IMG/VR virus record: IMGVR_UViG_3300025727_000060
Coordinates: 1 to 22,162 of that record
Direction: 5' to 3' (one strand)
DNA from: a virus
Length of the DNA stretch: 22,162 nucleotides
Below the pieces are notes generated by a model, which searched no databases, was not told the DNA's origin, and saw only the letters and a list, made by a program, of their open reading frames with translations. The number at the start of each line of letters is the position of its first letter. Position 1 is the first letter of the stretch. This document shows positions 7,121 to 22,037 of this stretch, in pieces. The translations under genes were made by a program, and so were the position numbers.

Positions 7121-7755
7121 GGTACGACGTACACCTCTGCACGATCATGAATTATGTTGTCCACCTCATCTTTCCATTCTGACATGGCCTGCTCTTTTTT
7201 AATAGCGCCACCAAACTCAAGATCATCCATTTTGATTGAGGATCTAATCAAGTCTATACATGTTAGTTTAAGACAGGCATCTTCTATATCATCTGGTACT
7301 GCTGCACTTCCATACCTGTATGTTACCTTTACCCTGTTGTTTCTTAATATTGAAAATATAAATCCCCTTAGATATAGTTCACCTTTTATTTTTTCTACAT
7401 CGTATGATCCAGGTGTATTTGTATAATCTGTCCATGTTGCGTTAGATCCGTTCCATATCTCTATTTTGTCTCCGGCACTTGTACAGAGACATGTTTCTCC
7501 TGCACCTACGGTAGTTACTTCTCTATGTTTTAATGATATAAATGTCCCCCAACCGAATGTATATAATAGTGGTAATGAGAATATTTCCTGAGTTGATTTA
7601 GTCCTTCCATATGTGTGACCAGTTCTACGGTCTATTTTCTCCTCTGCTCTTTTAATCAGTTTCTCTACCTGAGCAACACTAGGACTAGTAGAGCATGTTA
7701 TAGATATTCTTAAAAAATCTGCTACATCTGTAGTTGAAATATAACAAGTTGCCAT
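7117..7755 (-). CDS. head-tail connector (gp6-like adaptor)
   Basis: This 212-residue protein probably forms the ring beneath the portal. The N-terminal ~50 residues are helical (TTDVADFLRI, then SVAQVEKLIKRAEEKIDRRT), matching the start of gp6-type adaptors, which often begin with two short helices and an Arg-rich end. The middle is beta-rich and carries a CLC motif. The C-terminal part is helical again (DDIEDACLKLTCIDLIRSSI, KKEQAMSEWKDEVDNII), as expected for the segment that inserts into the portal. It is the first gene of a three-gene unit with the neck and terminator genes. The ATG at 7755 has a TTTAAA promoter 26.5 bases upstream. Confidence 0.85.
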   Translation of the reverse strand: MATCYISTTDVADFLRISITCSTSPSVAQVEKLIKRAEEKIDRRTGHTYGRTKSTQEIFSLPLLYTFGWGTFISLKHREVTTVGAGETCLCTSAGDKIEIWNGSNATWTDYTNTPGSYDVEKIKGELYLRGFIFSILRNNRVKVTYRYGSAAVPDDIEDACLKLTCIDLIRSSIKMDDLEFGGAIKKEQAMSEWKDEVDNIIHDRAEVYVVP

Positions 7756-7778
7756 GATATATAAGTGGTGTAATATGA

Positions 7779-7784
7779 TTTAAA
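7779..7784 (-). promoter_or_regulatory. TATA box (TTTAAA class) of the connector-neck-terminator unit
   Basis: TTTAAA, within CTTTAAATC, is centred 26.5 bases upstream of the ATG at 7755. TATATATC again abuts the start codon, so the arrangement closely matches the tape measure promoter. Confidence 0.7.
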
Positions 7785-7803
7785 GATTTAGTCATGGTTA
7801 TAC

Positions 7804-7971
7804 CTAATATGTGATATTAGTTAGGTTTCCTCTTGTCCATGAAGAACCATTGAATATATATTCATTTCTGGTGTCTGTTTCCAGAAATTTAGAATTAGTT
7901 ACCACATTTGTAGGTTTTACATCAGATGATAAACCTGTTATACGGTTACCTGCAAAATATTTTAATGTCAT
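7804..7971 (-). CDS. small fibre-associated protein
   Basis: This is a 55-residue protein. It begins MTLKYFAGNRITGLSSDVKP and ends with TRNEYIFNGSSWTRGNLTNI. The pattern of FAG-R-TGLSSD-KPTNV, then ETDT, then Y-I-F/Y-NGSSW is one I recall from small marine-virus structural proteins or fibre ends that display a short beta hairpin. The ATG overlaps the upstream fibre stop by four bases (ATGA, 7968-7971), and GGAGGT lies nine bases upstream, the best ribosome-binding site in the window. It is the last gene of a three-gene surface-protein unit. Cotranslation with the fibre suggests a tip or chaperone role, which is inference. Confidence 0.85.
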   Translation of the reverse strand: MTLKYFAGNRITGLSSDVKPTNVVTNSKFLETDTRNEYIFNGSSWTRGNLTNITY

Positions 7972-15391: not shown

Positions 15392-15397
15392 TTTAAA
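15392..15397 (-). promoter_or_regulatory. TATA box (TTTAAA class) of the membrane coiled-coil gene
   Basis: TTTAAA is centred 27.5 bases upstream of the ATG at 15367 and overlaps the TAA stop of the next gene (15393-15395). GATATAT abuts the start codon. Confidence 0.65.
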
Positions 15398-15617
15398 GAA
15401 TCGGCTTCAATAGTTTGTCTTCTATCAATTCAATTATTATTGTTTGATCTCTCATTATTAAGTTTGTAAACTCATCTACTATATTTGGATATACTGTAAA
15501 ATAACCGCATCCCCAGCACAGTTTAAACTGATAATTTTTTACTATTCCGTTTGATTCCCTATCAATGGTATATCTGGATATTATACATTTGCATTTTTTA
15601 CAATCGTTATATCCCAT
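15393..15617 (-). CDS. small CxxC zinc-ribbon-like protein
   Basis: This 74-residue protein opens with MGYNDCKKCKCIISR and has a second pair, CWGC, about 25 residues later. The CKKC and CWGC pairs could hold one zinc ion in a ribbon. The second half is helical (DEFTNLIMRDQTIIIELIED) with no motif I recognise. Small zinc-ribbon proteins of this kind are often transcription or DNA-binding accessory factors, but none is specified by this sequence. Its promoter is interlocked with that of the only plus-strand gene, so the two may be regulated together or exclude one another. Confidence 0.8.
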   Translation of the reverse strand: MGYNDCKKCKCIISRYTIDRESNGIVKNYQFKLCWGCGYFTVYPNIVDEFTNLIMRDQTIIIELIEDKLLKPIL

Positions 15618-16101: not shown

Positions 16102-16557
16102 TTATTTTCTATAATGCCTGGTAAATCCATCTTGAAACAAAAAGTCTTTTCCAAGATTACGTCTCATGGATTTCCAGAATGGGTCCACTTTAGTAGTTCC
16201 TCCTGCACGTCTAAAATCCCTTAATGTCTCTCTAACTTTATAGTGACAGTTGTAACACAGTCTTGCATTCATCTGTTTTATACTCCAATCATATCTTCCA
16301 CAAAACATACACATATCCCATCCCTTGTCTGCTACCGTTACCAATGTAAACTCATGTCCTCTGTTTCGTCTGCAATGTTCACACACATTAAAAAGTGTTG
16401 CCGATACCGCTTTCTTTTTTTCACATCTCCAACAAAATCCTTCTTTGTGATTGTTCACTCTTTTTTGTTCATCTTTCTGATGCATATCCCAAATCTTGTT
16501 ACCTGCGGCTGTTCCACCAGTATTTACATTTAGTTTATCAGCCAAGATTGTCTCCAT
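16102..16557 (-). CDS. multi-CxxC zinc finger protein
   Basis: This 151-residue protein has four CxxC pairs: CWRC, CEHC, CMFC and CYNC, enough for two zinc sites. Around them are aromatic and basic residues (HEFTLVTVADKGWDM, RYDWSIKQMNARL). The C-terminus is basic and aromatic (FRRAGGTTKVDPFWKSMRRN, GFTRHYRK), suggesting nucleic-acid or capsid contact. The ATG at 16557 (METILADKLN) lies inside the end of the previous gene (overlap of 20 bases), with GGAAAG a few bases upstream. A longer start at 16587 would overlap that gene by 50 bases and adds residues of low credibility. It is the last gene of a three-gene unit. The function is unknown; a nucleic-acid-binding protein or late regulator is possible. 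Confidence 0.78.
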   Translation of the reverse strand: METILADKLNVNTGGTAAGNKIWDMHQKDEQKRVNNHKEGFCWRCEKKKAVSATLFNVCEHCRRNRGHEFTLVTVADKGWDMCMFCGRYDWSIKQMNARLCYNCHYKVRETLRDFRRAGGTTKVDPFWKSMRRNLGKDFLFQDGFTRHYRK

Positions 16558-16765
16558 TTTTATCTTTCCATGCGTCAAATGCACCACCTATCTCCTTACT
16601 TACTATTGCCTCTATTGCTTCTACTGGTATATCTGTTAATTTTTGTATGTTTTTTACTATTGTTGTTGGATCATTGGAATGGAGCCCCTGCATTAAGCAT
16701 TGTCTGACCATGTCATAATTTTCAGGTGTGACGTATTCGTATGGATCTTTTTTTCTGTTAAACAT
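16538..16765 (-). CDS. small unknown protein
   Basis: This 75-residue protein begins MFNRKKDPYEYVTPENYDMV and is mostly helical (QCLMQGLHSNDPTTIVKNIQ, IPVEAIEAIVSKEIGGAFDA). It has no membrane segment. I do not recognise it. The shape, two or three helices with an acidic-basic mixture, could suit a small adaptor. A longer in-frame start at 16795 adds MTHIGGLITK but overlaps the preceding small gene by 29 bases. The ATG at 16765 follows that gene's stop (TAA, then A, then ATG) and is the simpler choice. A run of six G residues lies about 12 bases upstream and may act as a weak ribosome site. Confidence 0.72.
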   Translation of the reverse strand: MFNRKKDPYEYVTPENYDMVRQCLMQGLHSNDPTTIVKNIQKLTDIPVEAIEAIVSKEIGGAFDAWKDKNGDNLG

Positions 16766-17862: not shown

Positions 17863-19989
17863 TTATTCGTCTTCTTTCTGTATGTCAGGCATTCCTTCTT
17901 TTCTTATTGTATATGTTGGGTTGCCTCTTGATTTTTTTCTTCTTACAGTTTCTGCCAATCCAGGTAATGTTTCTTCTTCTTCATCTGTTATTGTTGGGAA
18001 GTATATTGTCCCCGATTTTTTGTGTTGGAATTCCCATGTCTTGATCATGTTTCTAGCATCATCTTCCGATACCGACCCGTCTTTTGTTATCTTTCTGATC
18101 CAGAAATCTTCAGTATGCCCAATTGAACTTTCTGATTTTTGTGACGAATTAAATGCACCTGATCTCTGTTTGCCTCCAGCAGTTGGACTACCTTGACCGG
18201 CACCACCTGGGTCACTTGGCCTGTTGTTCATAGGACCTCCCTGTTTTGATCCTGCAGTACGTTCACCATTACCTGTTGTAGATGCACCCCTTCCTTGTTT
18301 CTGTCCTTCTGGGTCTGCTTCTTGCATGGCCATACCAAGTTCTGCCTGTTGTTCCATGGCAGCCATATCTGGCAGCATGACCTGTTCGAATGTTGGCTCC
18401 TTTCCGACAACCCAGTCTCCAGTATGTGTTCTCTTGACATCAAATCCCATTTGTTGCAGGGTTGCGTTGTTCTGGATCTCCTGTGCCTTTATTTCGAGAT
18501 CTCTGAGTTCATCGGCTTCTTCACCTTCTCTAAGTCGCAAAGTCCAATCATTAACCATTAGTTCTTTTGCCAATCTGTCGAAAATATGTGTCTTTAAAAA
18601 GTCTTGTGACCACTTTACATGTCTGTTTGTGATTGTAACCTGCATTCCTTCATTTGCCCATCCTGATGGAAGTTCTCCAAAGTAAAGAGGTAATACTCCG
18701 TATGCTGCTCCTATAATCTGTCTTAGTTCTCTTCTTATATCTATAAATTGTAATTCTTTTAGGGACCCCGTGAAATCAATCCATTGTGCTGCCTGACCTG
18801 TTCCTCCCTTGTCAGATTCTACCAATAATGGGTGTATCATGTAAGGATCTTCTGTTGCTCTTTGCTCCAACGTGTTCCATGACTTTCTAAAAGTCTCATA
18901 GTTTCTTGATGCAATAACCAAAAGACCTCTTGGTGGACGCATCTTGTCAAAGTATTTTCTAATATATTCATCCATATGTGATAATGACATTATCTTGCTC
19001 CATAAGGCATAAATTGGTGAAAAACCATAAATTAATCCTGGTTTGTATTTTCCTGCTACCCAAATAACCTCTCCTTGTGCATAAATTACTCTTTTTGGTT
19101 GTGGTATACCTACTGAATATACAGATGATACCTCTAATAATGCTTTTAATGCTTCCGCACCACATCTATCACAATGTGGTTTGGTGAGCCTTTTATCTCT
19201 ATGTTCAAATCTTGGACAAACATATACAGCATTTCTTTTGTCGTCAAATCCAACCCTTCCGTCTGAATCTGCTATTATTGCCACTTGTGGAGGGTCTATT
19301 CTTATCAATTCTTTTATCTTTGTCTTCTTTTTATCAATCTTACCAGTAACATCATTAACATAATAATTCTTTAACAGTAATAGATAGCAGTTATCAGCAA
19401 CTTCCAAGTCTCTTTCTAACATTCTACCTACATCTTCCATTGTTTGGTCGTTATTATTGACGAAACATGTGAATAATTGTTGTAAAATTTTACGATTTTC
19501 AGGTTTTGGTCTAGCAATATCTCCTGAACCACAGTCATCACATTCTGCTGGTGTGTCTTCTTCCTTTAAACTTGGCATTCCGGCCTTGTTTAGTATCTTG
19601 TTTGCATGTGTAAGTTTTTTTGCCGGTGCTTTATCCAAGTCAGCATCCTCTGGTGGACCTTCTTTTCTGTCAAAAGAGTCATTTTTGGATGGTTTGCCGT
19701 CAAATTCCTTTCCACAGTTGTTACACTTGTATTTGTACTTTTCAACTACCTCAAATCCGTTCTTAAACATCTCTCTATTGATAGTTTCAATGGAAATTCT
19801 TAGAGCGTCAACATTATCTGACAACTCATAGATCATTATAAGTGGAAATGGAAAAATTGGGAGTTTAGCACCTGTATCAGTTGCCATATATGGCTGCATA
19901 ATGGCTGGTCTGGATGTAGTTTCAGTATAACCTTTATCGACTGACGTTAAAGCCTTATAAGCACTTGTAAACCTGTCCTTAAATCCCAT
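17863..19989 (-). CDS. portal protein with inserted zinc-ribbon-like cysteine pairs
   Basis: This 708-residue protein should form the ring at the capsid vertex through which DNA passes. The portal-like core is seen at ~305-365 (EVIWVAGKYKPGLIYGFSPI, then LWSKIMSLSHMDEYIRKYF), and at ~420-465 (RRELRQIIGAAYGVLPLYFG, GWANEGMQVTITNRHVKWS), patterns I know from phage portals. Two Cys sets are inserted. C89-x2-C92 and C150-x2-C153 are separated by a ~57-residue charged loop. C258, His263, C273 and C276 form another possible metal site. Residues ~556-620 are Gly/Gln/Ser/Pro-rich and probably flexible. The last ~85 residues (HTEDFWIRKITKDGSVSEDD onward) look like a separate small domain. The TATA box is 25.5 bases before the ATG. 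The cysteines suggest zinc-stabilised loops. Confidence 0.92.
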   Translation of the reverse strand: MGFKDRFTSAYKALTSVDKGYTETTSRPAIMQPYMATDTGAKLPIFPFPLIMIYELSDNVDALRISIETINREMFKNGFEVVEKYKYKCNNCGKEFDGKPSKNDSFDRKEGPPEDADLDKAPAKKLTHANKILNKAGMPSLKEEDTPAECDDCGSGDIARPKPENRKILQQLFTCFVNNNDQTMEDVGRMLERDLEVADNCYLLLLKNYYVNDVTGKIDKKKTKIKELIRIDPPQVAIIADSDGRVGFDDKRNAVYVCPRFEHRDKRLTKPHCDRCGAEALKALLEVSSVYSVGIPQPKRVIYAQGEVIWVAGKYKPGLIYGFSPIYALWSKIMSLSHMDEYIRKYFDKMRPPRGLLVIASRNYETFRKSWNTLEQRATEDPYMIHPLLVESDKGGTGQAAQWIDFTGSLKELQFIDIRRELRQIIGAAYGVLPLYFGELPSGWANEGMQVTITNRHVKWSQDFLKTHIFDRLAKELMVNDWTLRLREGEEADELRDLEIKAQEIQNNATLQQMGFDVKRTHTGDWVVGKEPTFEQVMLPDMAAMEQQAELGMAMQEADPEGQKQGRGASTTGNGERTAGSKQGGPMNNRPSDPGGAGQGSPTAGGKQRSGAFNSSQKSESSIGHTEDFWIRKITKDGSVSEDDARNMIKTWEFQHKKSGTIYFPTITDEEEETLPGLAETVRRKKSRGNPTYTIRKEGMPDIQKEDE

Positions 19990-20018: not shown

Positions 20019-20250
20019 GTTATTTGAAAATTTTCTGAAAAAGTGAAAATAAATTTATTTTTTGAAAAATTTTTGTAATTAAATGAATATTTTCAGTGGT
20101 TAGATGACGTCTCTAACGCTCTTTCTAACATGAGTAATCACTGAATGGTTTAAGAAGGATACCGTATAAGGGTAATCCTTGACAACCAATATATATATAC
20201 GTCGTTGACTAATATAAACTTACCTGTATTTAACTCTATCTTAAATTACA
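20019..20250. other. AT-rich non-coding stretch with palindromes and a hairpin
   Basis: No gene can be supported here. The part at 20019-20095 is almost pure A/T and holds perfect palindromes GAAAATTTTC (20026-20035), AAAATAAATTTATTTT (20046-20061) and AAAAATTTTT (20065-20074). Further right, 20155-20180 can fold into a hairpin: AAGGAT pairs with ATCCTT, extended by ACC with GGT across a bulge, with loop GTATAAG. An alternating AT run lies at 20189-20199. It could be a terminator cluster, a control region or a DNA-unwinding element. Confidence 0.45.
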
Positions 20251-20340
20251 TTAACAGTTGCATTTAACACATTCACAGTCAGTACACTTACAAACACCGT
20301 GGTCTTCACAATCACATTTTGGACATTCACATGCACTCAT
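20251..20340 (-). CDS. 29-residue metallothionein-like Cys-rich protein
   Basis: This short gene encodes 29 residues, ten of them Cys, at positions 4, 6, 9, 11, 17, 19, 22, 24, 27 and 29. They fall into five CxC pairs, with His14 between the second and third. The intervening residues are mainly Asp, Glu and Lys. Such density and CxC spacing is typical of metallothioneins and other metal-cluster binders (Zn, Cu or Cd). The gene has a clear promoter (TATA centre 26.5 bases before the ATG) and a single TAA stop, so it is unlikely to be a chance frame. No homologue is claimed. It may buffer metal for the many zinc-binding viral proteins encoded nearby, or blunt copper toxicity in the host; both are inference. 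Confidence 0.8.
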   Translation of the reverse strand: MSACECPKCDCEDHGVCKCTDCECVKCNC

Positions 20341-20362: not shown

Positions 20363-20370
20363 TATATAAA
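20363..20370 (-). promoter_or_regulatory. TATA box of the metallothionein-like gene
   Basis: TTTATATA on the minus strand is centred 26.5 bases upstream of the ATG at 20340 and just before the stop of the next gene. It supports this very short gene as real. Confidence 0.75.
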
Positions 20371-20372
20371 GA

Positions 20373-20753
20373 TTAGTAATGTGACAGTCTTTGTCTGTTT
20401 TGTCTTTTAACACTCTCTCTATATTGTTGTGGATTATTTTCCCTCCATTTTCTTTGTCGTTCGGCATTTGTCATCGGTGGTTGTTTGTTTTCACCACCAT
20501 ATGGTTTTCCTCTTTTTCCACGAAGCATTCTCATTCCTATCCTTGATGCCCATTTTCTTTTTTCTTTCAGGATCATCTCGTCAAAACAGAATGTCATAAG
20601 TGTGTACAGTCTGTTGACCGATTTTATCTCCTCCAACTTAATGACAATTAGAGCTCTTGTATGAAAATTCCTAAGTTCCAACGTTCTCATGTTTTCAGGT
20701 ATGTTGTTATATGCCTTTACAACCTGTGTTGCTTTTTCTATCTCTTGATTCAT
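20373..20753 (-). CDS. basic helical protein of unknown function
   Basis: This 126-residue protein starts with helices (IEKATQVVKAYNNIPENMRT, FHTRALIVIKLEEIKSVNRL) and has a second half rich in Arg, Lys, Gln and Asn, ending MTNAERQRKWRENNPQQYRE followed by RQNRQRLSHY. The ending resembles basic tails seen in phage DNA-binding and homing-endonuclease-type proteins (pattern of R-x-W-x-E-N-N-P), but no catalytic motif is present. It precedes the portal and metallothionein-like genes, the region where a small terminase subunit often sits, so a DNA-packaging role is possible but unproven. It has a TATA box 26.5 bases before the ATG. Confidence 0.75.
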   Translation of the reverse strand: MNQEIEKATQVVKAYNNIPENMRTLELRNFHTRALIVIKLEEIKSVNRLYTLMTFCFDEMILKEKRKWASRIGMRMLRGKRGKPYGGENKQPPMTNAERQRKWRENNPQQYRESVKRQNRQRLSHY

Positions 20754-20958: not shown

Positions 20959-20961
20959 TAA

Positions 20962-20969
20962 TATATATG
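20962..20969 (+). promoter_or_regulatory. TATA-like box for the candidate small RNA
   Basis: TATATATG on the plus strand lies about 26 bases before position 20992, the start of a GC-rich segment. Spacing agrees with the other promoters in the window. Confidence 0.45.
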
Positions 20970-20990
20970 ACTAGTAGTGTGAATTTGCAC

Positions 20991-21045
20991 GCCAGCTCCT
21001 AAGCTCTGGAAGTCCGGAGTAATGACCCGGCTAGTCGGTCTTTTT
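20991..21045 (+). ncRNA. candidate small structured RNA
   Basis: Positions 20991-21040 contain 30 G/C of 50 bases inside a very AT-rich area, a classic sign of structured RNA. CTCTGG at 21004-21009 and CCGGAG at 21014-21019 form a six-pair stem (one G-T pair) with loop AAGT. A second hairpin is possible from GACCCG (21024) to CGGTC (21040), followed at once by TTTTT (21041-21045), an ending like a terminator. A TATA-like box lies ~26 bases upstream of the start. No credible reading frame is present. It is not a tRNA: no acceptor or T-arm is seen. The family is not recognised. Confidence 0.5.
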
Positions 21046-21112: not shown

Positions 21113-21217
21113 TTATTCTTGTTTATCATCATCATCATCTTTTATCTGTTTCCTTTTTGATTTCTTGACAAATAATCCATTAGGACCCAATTCACAAGAA
21201 GTTCCACAACAACCCAT
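21113..21217 (-). CDS. 34-residue Cys-containing basic/acidic protein
   Basis: This short gene encodes 34 residues starting MGCCGTSCELGPNGLFVKKS, followed by a Lys/Arg cluster and a run of five Asp residues near the end. Three Cys lie within the first eight residues. It has a TTTAAATA box 28.5 bases before the ATG, the spacing seen for TTTAAA-class genes here, and a clean TAA stop. I do not recognise it. The Cys cluster could hold a metal or an iron-sulfur centre with a partner. It stands alone between the metalloprotease gene and the candidate small RNA. Confidence 0.65.
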   Translation of the reverse strand: MGCCGTSCELGPNGLFVKKSKRKQIKDDDDDKQE

Positions 21218-21263: not shown

Positions 21264-22037
21264 CTACCACTTGCAATCATATGCTATATTCTGCAAAAAA
21301 TTGCATGACTTTACGACAAGCGGAAACTTTACACCATTCCATCCATATTCCCCATACAGTTTGCCCATCATCTGCAATTCGGGGGACTTTATATCAACAA
21401 CACTGCCATAGGAAATACTAAGATGAGGATACATGACAGACACCTCTATACCTTCCATATCCCTTGGTAAGGGTGATGAATTTATATAATGAAGAAGGCC
21501 AAACGCGTGTCCAAGCTCGTGAATTATCACTGATTGCAGTGTATAGTCATTCAATGATTCTATTGCCCAATCGGCATTTCCGTTGTTTATTATTATATGA
21601 TTGTTGTCAACATAGTTCACATATGCGTTTATTACCATAAATTTATGGTTGGAGTTTGTAAAATTTATTGATGTGGTGCCAAGTGCGTCGGATCCGCTAA
21701 GACCCTCAAATACAACCATTATCGTGCAGTGTGGAAAGTCTTCCGCAGACTTGTTCTTGTGGTCTTCCCATGCTATTGGCTCATGTATTATTATTTCCCA
21801 GTTACCCTTTGGATATTCCTTGAACAGTGCCTCCGTCCACGCATCTACCGAAACCCTGGTAAGAATCTCATGAGTCCTCGCACGGTCGCTGATGTCAGGA
21901 TCTATGTCGAAAATACATACTTCAGGGGTCTTGTCAAACCTGACCTTAAGCGTCTCAAGGTTGTCACCTACACCTGCAGGTATGACTCCCACACCACCAA
22001 TTAACACTAAAATTAGGAATAACGCTATGATTTTCAT
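21264..22037 (-). CDS. secreted matrixin-like metzincin metalloprotease
   Basis: This 257-residue protein starts with a signal peptide (MKIIALFLILVLIGGVGVIP), so it should act outside the cytoplasmic membrane. The active-site motif HELGHAFGLLH lies at 173-183, with His173, His177 and His183 as zinc ligands and Glu174 as the general base. The Met-turn SVMYP follows at 200-204. This combination defines metzincins, and the size fits matrixin-like archaeal enzymes. There are four Cys (41, 104, 245, 255) that could form disulfides. Codon third positions look more GC-rich than in the tail genes, hinting at a different origin or flanking host DNA. A role in cutting S-layer protein during virus release is possible but is inference. 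The promoter is weak: a TTTAAT about 29 bases before the ATG. Confidence 0.9.
   Translation of the reverse strand: MKIIALFLILVLIGGVGVIPAGVGDNLETLKVRFDKTPEVCIFDIDPDISDRARTHEILTRVSVDAWTEALFKEYPKGNWEIIIHEPIAWEDHKNKSAEDFPHCTIMVVFEGLSGSDALGTTSINFTNSNHKFMVINAYVNYVDNNHIIINNGNADWAIESLNDYTLQSVIIHELGHAFGLLHYINSSPLPRDMEGIEVSVMYPHLSISYGSVVDIKSPELQMMGKLYGEYGWNGVKFPLVVKSCNFLQNIAYDCKW

Follow-up and report, generated by a model that had tools for sequence, protein, structure and literature searches.

A cysteine-rich gene beside the portal gene

The window analysed here, a stretch of 22,162 nucleotides forming positions 1 to 22,162 of the IMG/VR record IMGVR_UViG_3300025727_000060, contains the following features around a very small reading frame rich in Cys codons.

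17863–19989, minus strand: portal protein, 708 aa (PHROG 18178, E=1.1e-35), with its own TATA box at -29
20095–20190, minus strand: RNA-B, a conserved candidate structured RNA in the gap that separates the portal gene from the metallothionein-like gene (nine-locus alignments)
20251–20340, minus strand: metallothionein-like gene, 29 aa, MSACECPKCDCEDHGVCKCTDCECVKCNC, kept in 14 contigs
20363–20370, minus strand: TATA box TTTATATA, 30 nt before the ATG of the metallothionein-like gene
20373–20753, minus strand: basic protein, 126 aa, net charge about +15, the upstream neighbour; no Pfam match
20961–21038, minus strand: RNA-A, a conserved candidate structured RNA on the upstream side of the basic-protein gene; covariance model match of 59.9 bits

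The preliminary description of this DNA had pointed to a 29-residue open reading frame with ten Cys, five CxC pairs and one His between the portal and the basic protein. We re-read it as such on the minus strand, the same strand as both neighbours. Its product is 34% Cys, contains no aromatic residue and follows the spacing C-x-C-x2-C-x-C-x2-H-x2-C-x-C-x2-C-x-C-x2-C-x-C. The properly spaced TATA box claimed for it was also found. In the clade to which the window belongs, TATA boxes lie at -28 to -32 in all ten of the slot genes measured (the slot being the position just 5' of the portal gene), and the same spacing recurs ahead of the portal gene and of numerous further genes in the window. It is the distance to be expected if archaeal transcripts such as the one predicted here have little or no leader.

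When the window was shuffled 60 times with dinucleotides preserved, no stretch of 29 residues combined 10 Cys with five CxC pairs, the best reaching 9 Cys and four CxC. Far stronger evidence for a gene than this shuffle test is the comparison across contigs described below. Positions 20251–20340 are a genuine gene for a protein, belonging to a tailed virus of marine archaea.

Conservation in one clade of portal relatives

We fetched 80 related virus loci by means of their portal genes and read the slot by position. The metallothionein-like motif lies just 5' of the portal gene in all 12 loci whose portal is at least 70% identical to that of the window, and also in L014 and L026 (58–61%), so that portal identity across the 14 motif-bearing contigs spans 58–100%. 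These 14 include near-copies and represent about 9–10 distinct lineages. In a portal tree one branch, with an SH-aLRT support of 100, separates the 14 carriers from all the others, and none of the 66 remaining portal-related loci has the motif in its slot. A search by position had been proposed in the preliminary description, which named loss of the frame or of its Cys codons in close relatives as the observation that would speak against the gene. The same slot held the motif in 14 of 14 contigs of the clade, with frame and Cys codons kept. This conservation, together with the TATA box, bears out the view that a real, separately promoted metallothionein-like gene stands beside the portal gene.

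An alignment of 11 sequences shows nine Cys and the His without any change; the tenth Cys is almost as constant. Both TGT and TGC occur at each of the eight Cys columns tabulated, and none of the nine replacement codons that separate the window from L003 falls on a Cys or the His. By these codon comparisons, the Cys codons are under purifying selection across the clade. Residues between the Cys vary, with almost only Asp and Glu conserved among them, while the core spacing is fixed; the net charge of the core ranges from -1 to -11 and is strongly acidic in most members. In L004, L008 and L009 the motif sits in the C-terminal part of longer proteins of up to 87 aa. The constant core spacing amid variable flanking residues, and this C-terminal placement in longer proteins, suggest that the Cys and His probably serve as ligands. 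L008 carries two tandem copies of the gene, a pair that recalls the dosage-driven duplications of metallothioneins.

Relation to known metallothioneins

The window peptide has the sequence traits of metallothioneins in the broad, functional sense: it is small, very rich in Cys and has these Cys in CxC pairs, its core is kept in 11 sequences, and aromatic residues are few (one Phe in L004) or, in the window itself, absent. Searches of Pfam, PHROGs, NCBIfam and the PDB gave no match to the protein, nor did tblastn against phage and plasmid records. The bacterial metallothionein family PF02069 (Metallothio_Pro) was found in none of seven virus records, with the control Synechococcus elongatus positive. 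Among 2.9 million viral contigs, genuine matches to the motif were confined to the clade of the window; additional matches in L087, L090 and L134 proved to be low-complexity artefacts. The exact pattern C-x-C-x2-C-x-C-x2-H-x2-C-x-C-x2-C-x-C had no genuine match in 84,980 species genomes. A cellular origin was rejected, all 31 exact-pattern matches in those genomes being low-complexity or repeat-derived Cys runs. We are dealing with a viral family of metallothionein-like proteins, established throughout one clade, for which the genomes searched showed no detectable cellular source. The open-access full-text literature contained no such gene from archaeal tailed viruses, which agrees with the earlier remark that no description of metallothioneins in this group was known to its author, an absence that is not by itself proof of novelty.

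SmtA, which has a similar number of ligands, binds 3–4 Zn(II) (PMC10612145). Bacterial metallothioneins of the SmtA/BmtA type are likewise small, Cys-rich and prokaryotic, with CxC pairs and His. In contrast to them, the window peptide is shorter, consists of an uninterrupted CxCxx array with no sign of a zinc-finger fold, and is encoded by a virus gene in the portal slot. Short eukaryotic metallothioneins, such as the fungal copper metallothioneins, have about 25–30 residues and CxC-xx-CxC arrays. The window peptide resembles these in size, CxC arrays and complete lack of aromatics; unlike them, it is acidic, has one conserved central His, comes from another domain of life and has no Pfam match.

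A mini-finger in the same slot of sister viruses

Viruses of the sister clade mostly have another tiny predicted metal-binding protein in this slot. Its arrangement is CxC-x(n)-CxxH, and we call it the mini-finger. The preliminary description had not extended to these viruses, nor to the two previously unannotated structured RNA candidates that flank the slot; well outside the clade of the window, the slot is kept with a CxC-CxxH or His-rich mini-protein. Among the 80 loci, 14 have the metallothionein type and 40 the CxC-CxxH type, the latter counted by the strict pattern C-x-C-x(4-12)-C-x(2-3)-H; the same pattern occurred in 0 of 80 antisense readings of the same stretches and in 68 of 1600 stretches drawn at random from these loci. 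A CxxC..CxC variant occupies the slot in four more, and about 15–20 of the 80 have neither peptide type. A typical sister peptide reads CxC..R(N/D)xxCxxHG, often after a His-rich stretch, as in HTHDDGTEHSHANG. A separate pattern scan for the mini-finger, with a pattern that was too narrow, returned two loci only, both already known.

Examples in the sister clade are the tiny His-rich proteins (HTHxDGTxHSHxxG plus CxC..CxxHG) directly before the portal gene at L017 1233–1385, L022 2122–2316 and L028 4837–4998; no family match was found for them. In one sub-group the slot holds instead a conserved hydrophobic, membrane-type protein of 86–90 aa beginning MKKDSRxK (L020 2748–3008, L027 8119–8379 and L073 1804–2076).

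The metallothionein-like peptide shares with the mini-finger its place, as a small gene immediately upstream of the portal family. Its core opens with C-x-C-x4-C-x2-H, four ligand positions that would fit the mini-finger spacing with n=4. The two differ in that the mini-finger has one predicted metal site rather than a ten-Cys cluster, often bears a His-rich N-terminal stretch, and lies about 60 nt from the portal gene as against 200–270 nt for the metallothionein type. Separate CxC-x4/5-CxxH modules are fused to the core or adjacent to it in L004, L008, L009 and L011: CKCGTGKCSIH or CKCEEGNCSVH modules precede it within the same protein in L004, L008 and L009, and L011–L013 have a mini-finger-like module in an overlapping upstream open reading frame. 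From the ligand spacing shared by the first half of the core, we infer that the metallothionein-type peptide probably evolved, within the clade of the window, from a mini-finger of the sister type; the resemblance spans 11–17 residues, a length that allows neither a statistical test nor proof of homology. In the simplest reading, a mini-finger would have been duplicated and have acquired further Cys to give the core, and the lineage of the window would then have kept only the core. Since the sister viruses keep a different predicted zinc peptide in the same slot, handling of metal at this portal-adjacent position would seem to matter to the virus.

The portal and the structured RNA candidates

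The portal of the window has CxxC pairs at residues 89, 150 and 273. All 80 portals keep at least the first pair, and nearly all have pairs near 89, 140 and 265. Because CxxC pairs are kept across the 80 portals, the product of this next gene is itself a probable zinc protein. Other proteins of zinc type are encoded nearby, namely two CxxC proteins at 15393–15617 and 16102–16587 and a matrixin-like protease at 21264–22037.

In RNA-A, 12 of 14 base pairs show compensatory changes, with a covariation score of 0.568 compared with 0.157 after shuffling. Its covariance model had matches in 26 of the 47 sources examined, some of them loci outside its training set; further copies lie at L015 4218–4295 and L033 4117–4187, and in sister viruses RNA-A stands directly upstream of the mini-finger gene. 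It is possibly a packaging or regulatory RNA. RNA-B comprises the elements GGTTGTCAGGGATTACC...GGTAGCCCTCTTAAACC...GAAAGAACGTCGATACGTCATC, with apparently covarying stems, and is specific to the clade of the window, occurring also at L002 2126–2243 and L008 7555–7650; TATA-like runs precede it. Rfam gave no match to either RNA, apart from a single match to STnc450 below the gathering score.

Viral relatives and host

Archaeal features are clear, with an MCM, a Rad51 family protein and TATA promoters. The nearest named relatives of the portal and of the major capsid protein are haloviruses of the Druskaviridae, at 22–26% identity. In these viruses (HVTV-1, HCTV-1, HCTV-5 and HCTV-16), unlike in the window, a terminase or an HNH endonuclease precedes the portal, and their annotation lists no small Cys-rich gene at this place. 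A search for the portal in 390 genomes of one archaeal phylum, run without a positive control, gave no host assignment, and tRNAs and named relatives likewise pointed to no host. The copper-dependent ammonia oxidiser suggested earlier as host gained no support.

Proposed role and alternatives

We tentatively prefer the reading that the metallothionein-like peptide is a store or donor of zinc for virus assembly, and give it a probability of about 0.45. The gene's own TATA box would direct transcription of an mRNA with almost no leader. We infer that the ten Cys and one His of the peptide would wrap a single metal–thiolate cluster, probably of 3–4 Zn(II), and that in the course of infection the peptide would keep zinc and pass it on to concurrently produced virus proteins that require it, above all the portal. 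Zn(II) is favoured over copper because the relatives in the slot look like Zn(II) ligands, with CxxH and His-rich stretches. AlphaFold2 gave the two-module protein of L008 a pLDDT of only 56 and no secondary structure, and lack of a confident model is expected of a peptide organised by metal.

A CxxC-rich portal family is compatible with a role in zinc supply. The viruses whose slot is empty of a metal-binding peptide (the 15–20 mentioned above) keep the same CxxC motifs in their portals, so the portal has no strict need of such a helper, and a peptide of 29 residues might well act with some other partner altogether. Storage or donation of zinc by such a peptide would bear on how zinc-rich virion proteins obtain their metal in metal-poor seawater, and descent from a mini-finger would bear on how metallothioneins can arise anew from a zinc finger. 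The predicted zinc peptide of the sister slot turns a lone curiosity into a testable rule, that these viruses themselves encode the means of handling metal beside the portal gene.

Less probable, while deserving serious thought, is a structural or packaging mini-protein, cross-linked by metal, that would remain associated with portal, packaging machinery or structured RNAs; its metal would then be structural rather than stored. The portal-adjacent slot is kept across the family despite the changed type of sequence, two conserved RNA candidates flank it, and the sister form resembles a single-site zinc knuckle. Such a part in packaging is at odds with the acidity of the core, which disfavours RNA binding, with conservation of only Asp and Glu between the Cys, which leaves no obvious binding surface, and with the lack of a predicted fold. 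We consider it unlikely that the bolder statement holds in full, namely that in a large group of marine archaeal tailed viruses the slot always selects for a metal-binding microprotein and that one clade made of it a virus-born metallothionein, which metallates the portal or aids packaging with the structured RNA. If true, a portal-metallating metallothionein born in a virus would be the first one invented by viruses and a new kind of assembly factor.

That the peptide buffers Cu(I), protecting virus and host where the infected cell is rich in copper, for instance an ammonia oxidiser, strikes us as improbable. Cys-rich peptides with CxC pairs are able to bind Cu(I), and the viruses are archaeal; however, the Cys/His mini-fingers and His-rich stretches of the slot relatives point to Zn(II), and a search for amoC in 16 related contigs gave no match, although control genomes also gave none. 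Still more doubtful is a thiol redox buffer or general heavy-metal detoxification peptide with no specific virus partner. The Cys content and the duplication in L008 would suit it, whereas the strict CxC spacing and invariant His suggest a defined coordination geometry, and the fixed position beside the portal gene is left unexplained.

A leader peptide whose Cys codons stall ribosomes and so control the downstream RNA-B and portal region is very improbable; a short reading frame is indeed followed by a conserved RNA candidate and then the portal gene, but we reject this reading on the separate TATA box of the portal and the TATA-like runs before RNA-B, on the C-terminal motif in proteins of up to 87 aa, and on the conserved His and exact spacing, which codon sensing does not need. 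A spurious reading frame, to which the length of just 29 codons might point, has next to no probability left and is refuted by the cross-contig comparison, with its clade-wide conservation and purifying selection on the Cys codons.

Further genes of the neighbourhood

Another tiny conserved protein, of 28–35 aa and with the pattern MGC..C..CELGxxGLFxxKxKKK, is encoded at 21113–21217 (minus strand) in the window, at L002 1191–1292, L006 8851–8952 and L010 3479–3583, and also in L004, L008 and L011; it has no Pfam match. At 21264–22037 (minus strand) lies a gene for a matrixin-like protease with the motif HELGHAFGLLH, a hydrophobic N-terminus and a weak match to PF00413 (E=1.1e-4, below the cut-off), an unusual member of a virion-gene cluster. 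The contig of L002, to which the window is near-identical, carries a tryptophan halogenase gene in its tail region (L129 7307–8857; PF04820, E=4e-100), which appears to be absent at the corresponding place in the window (about 7755–7968).
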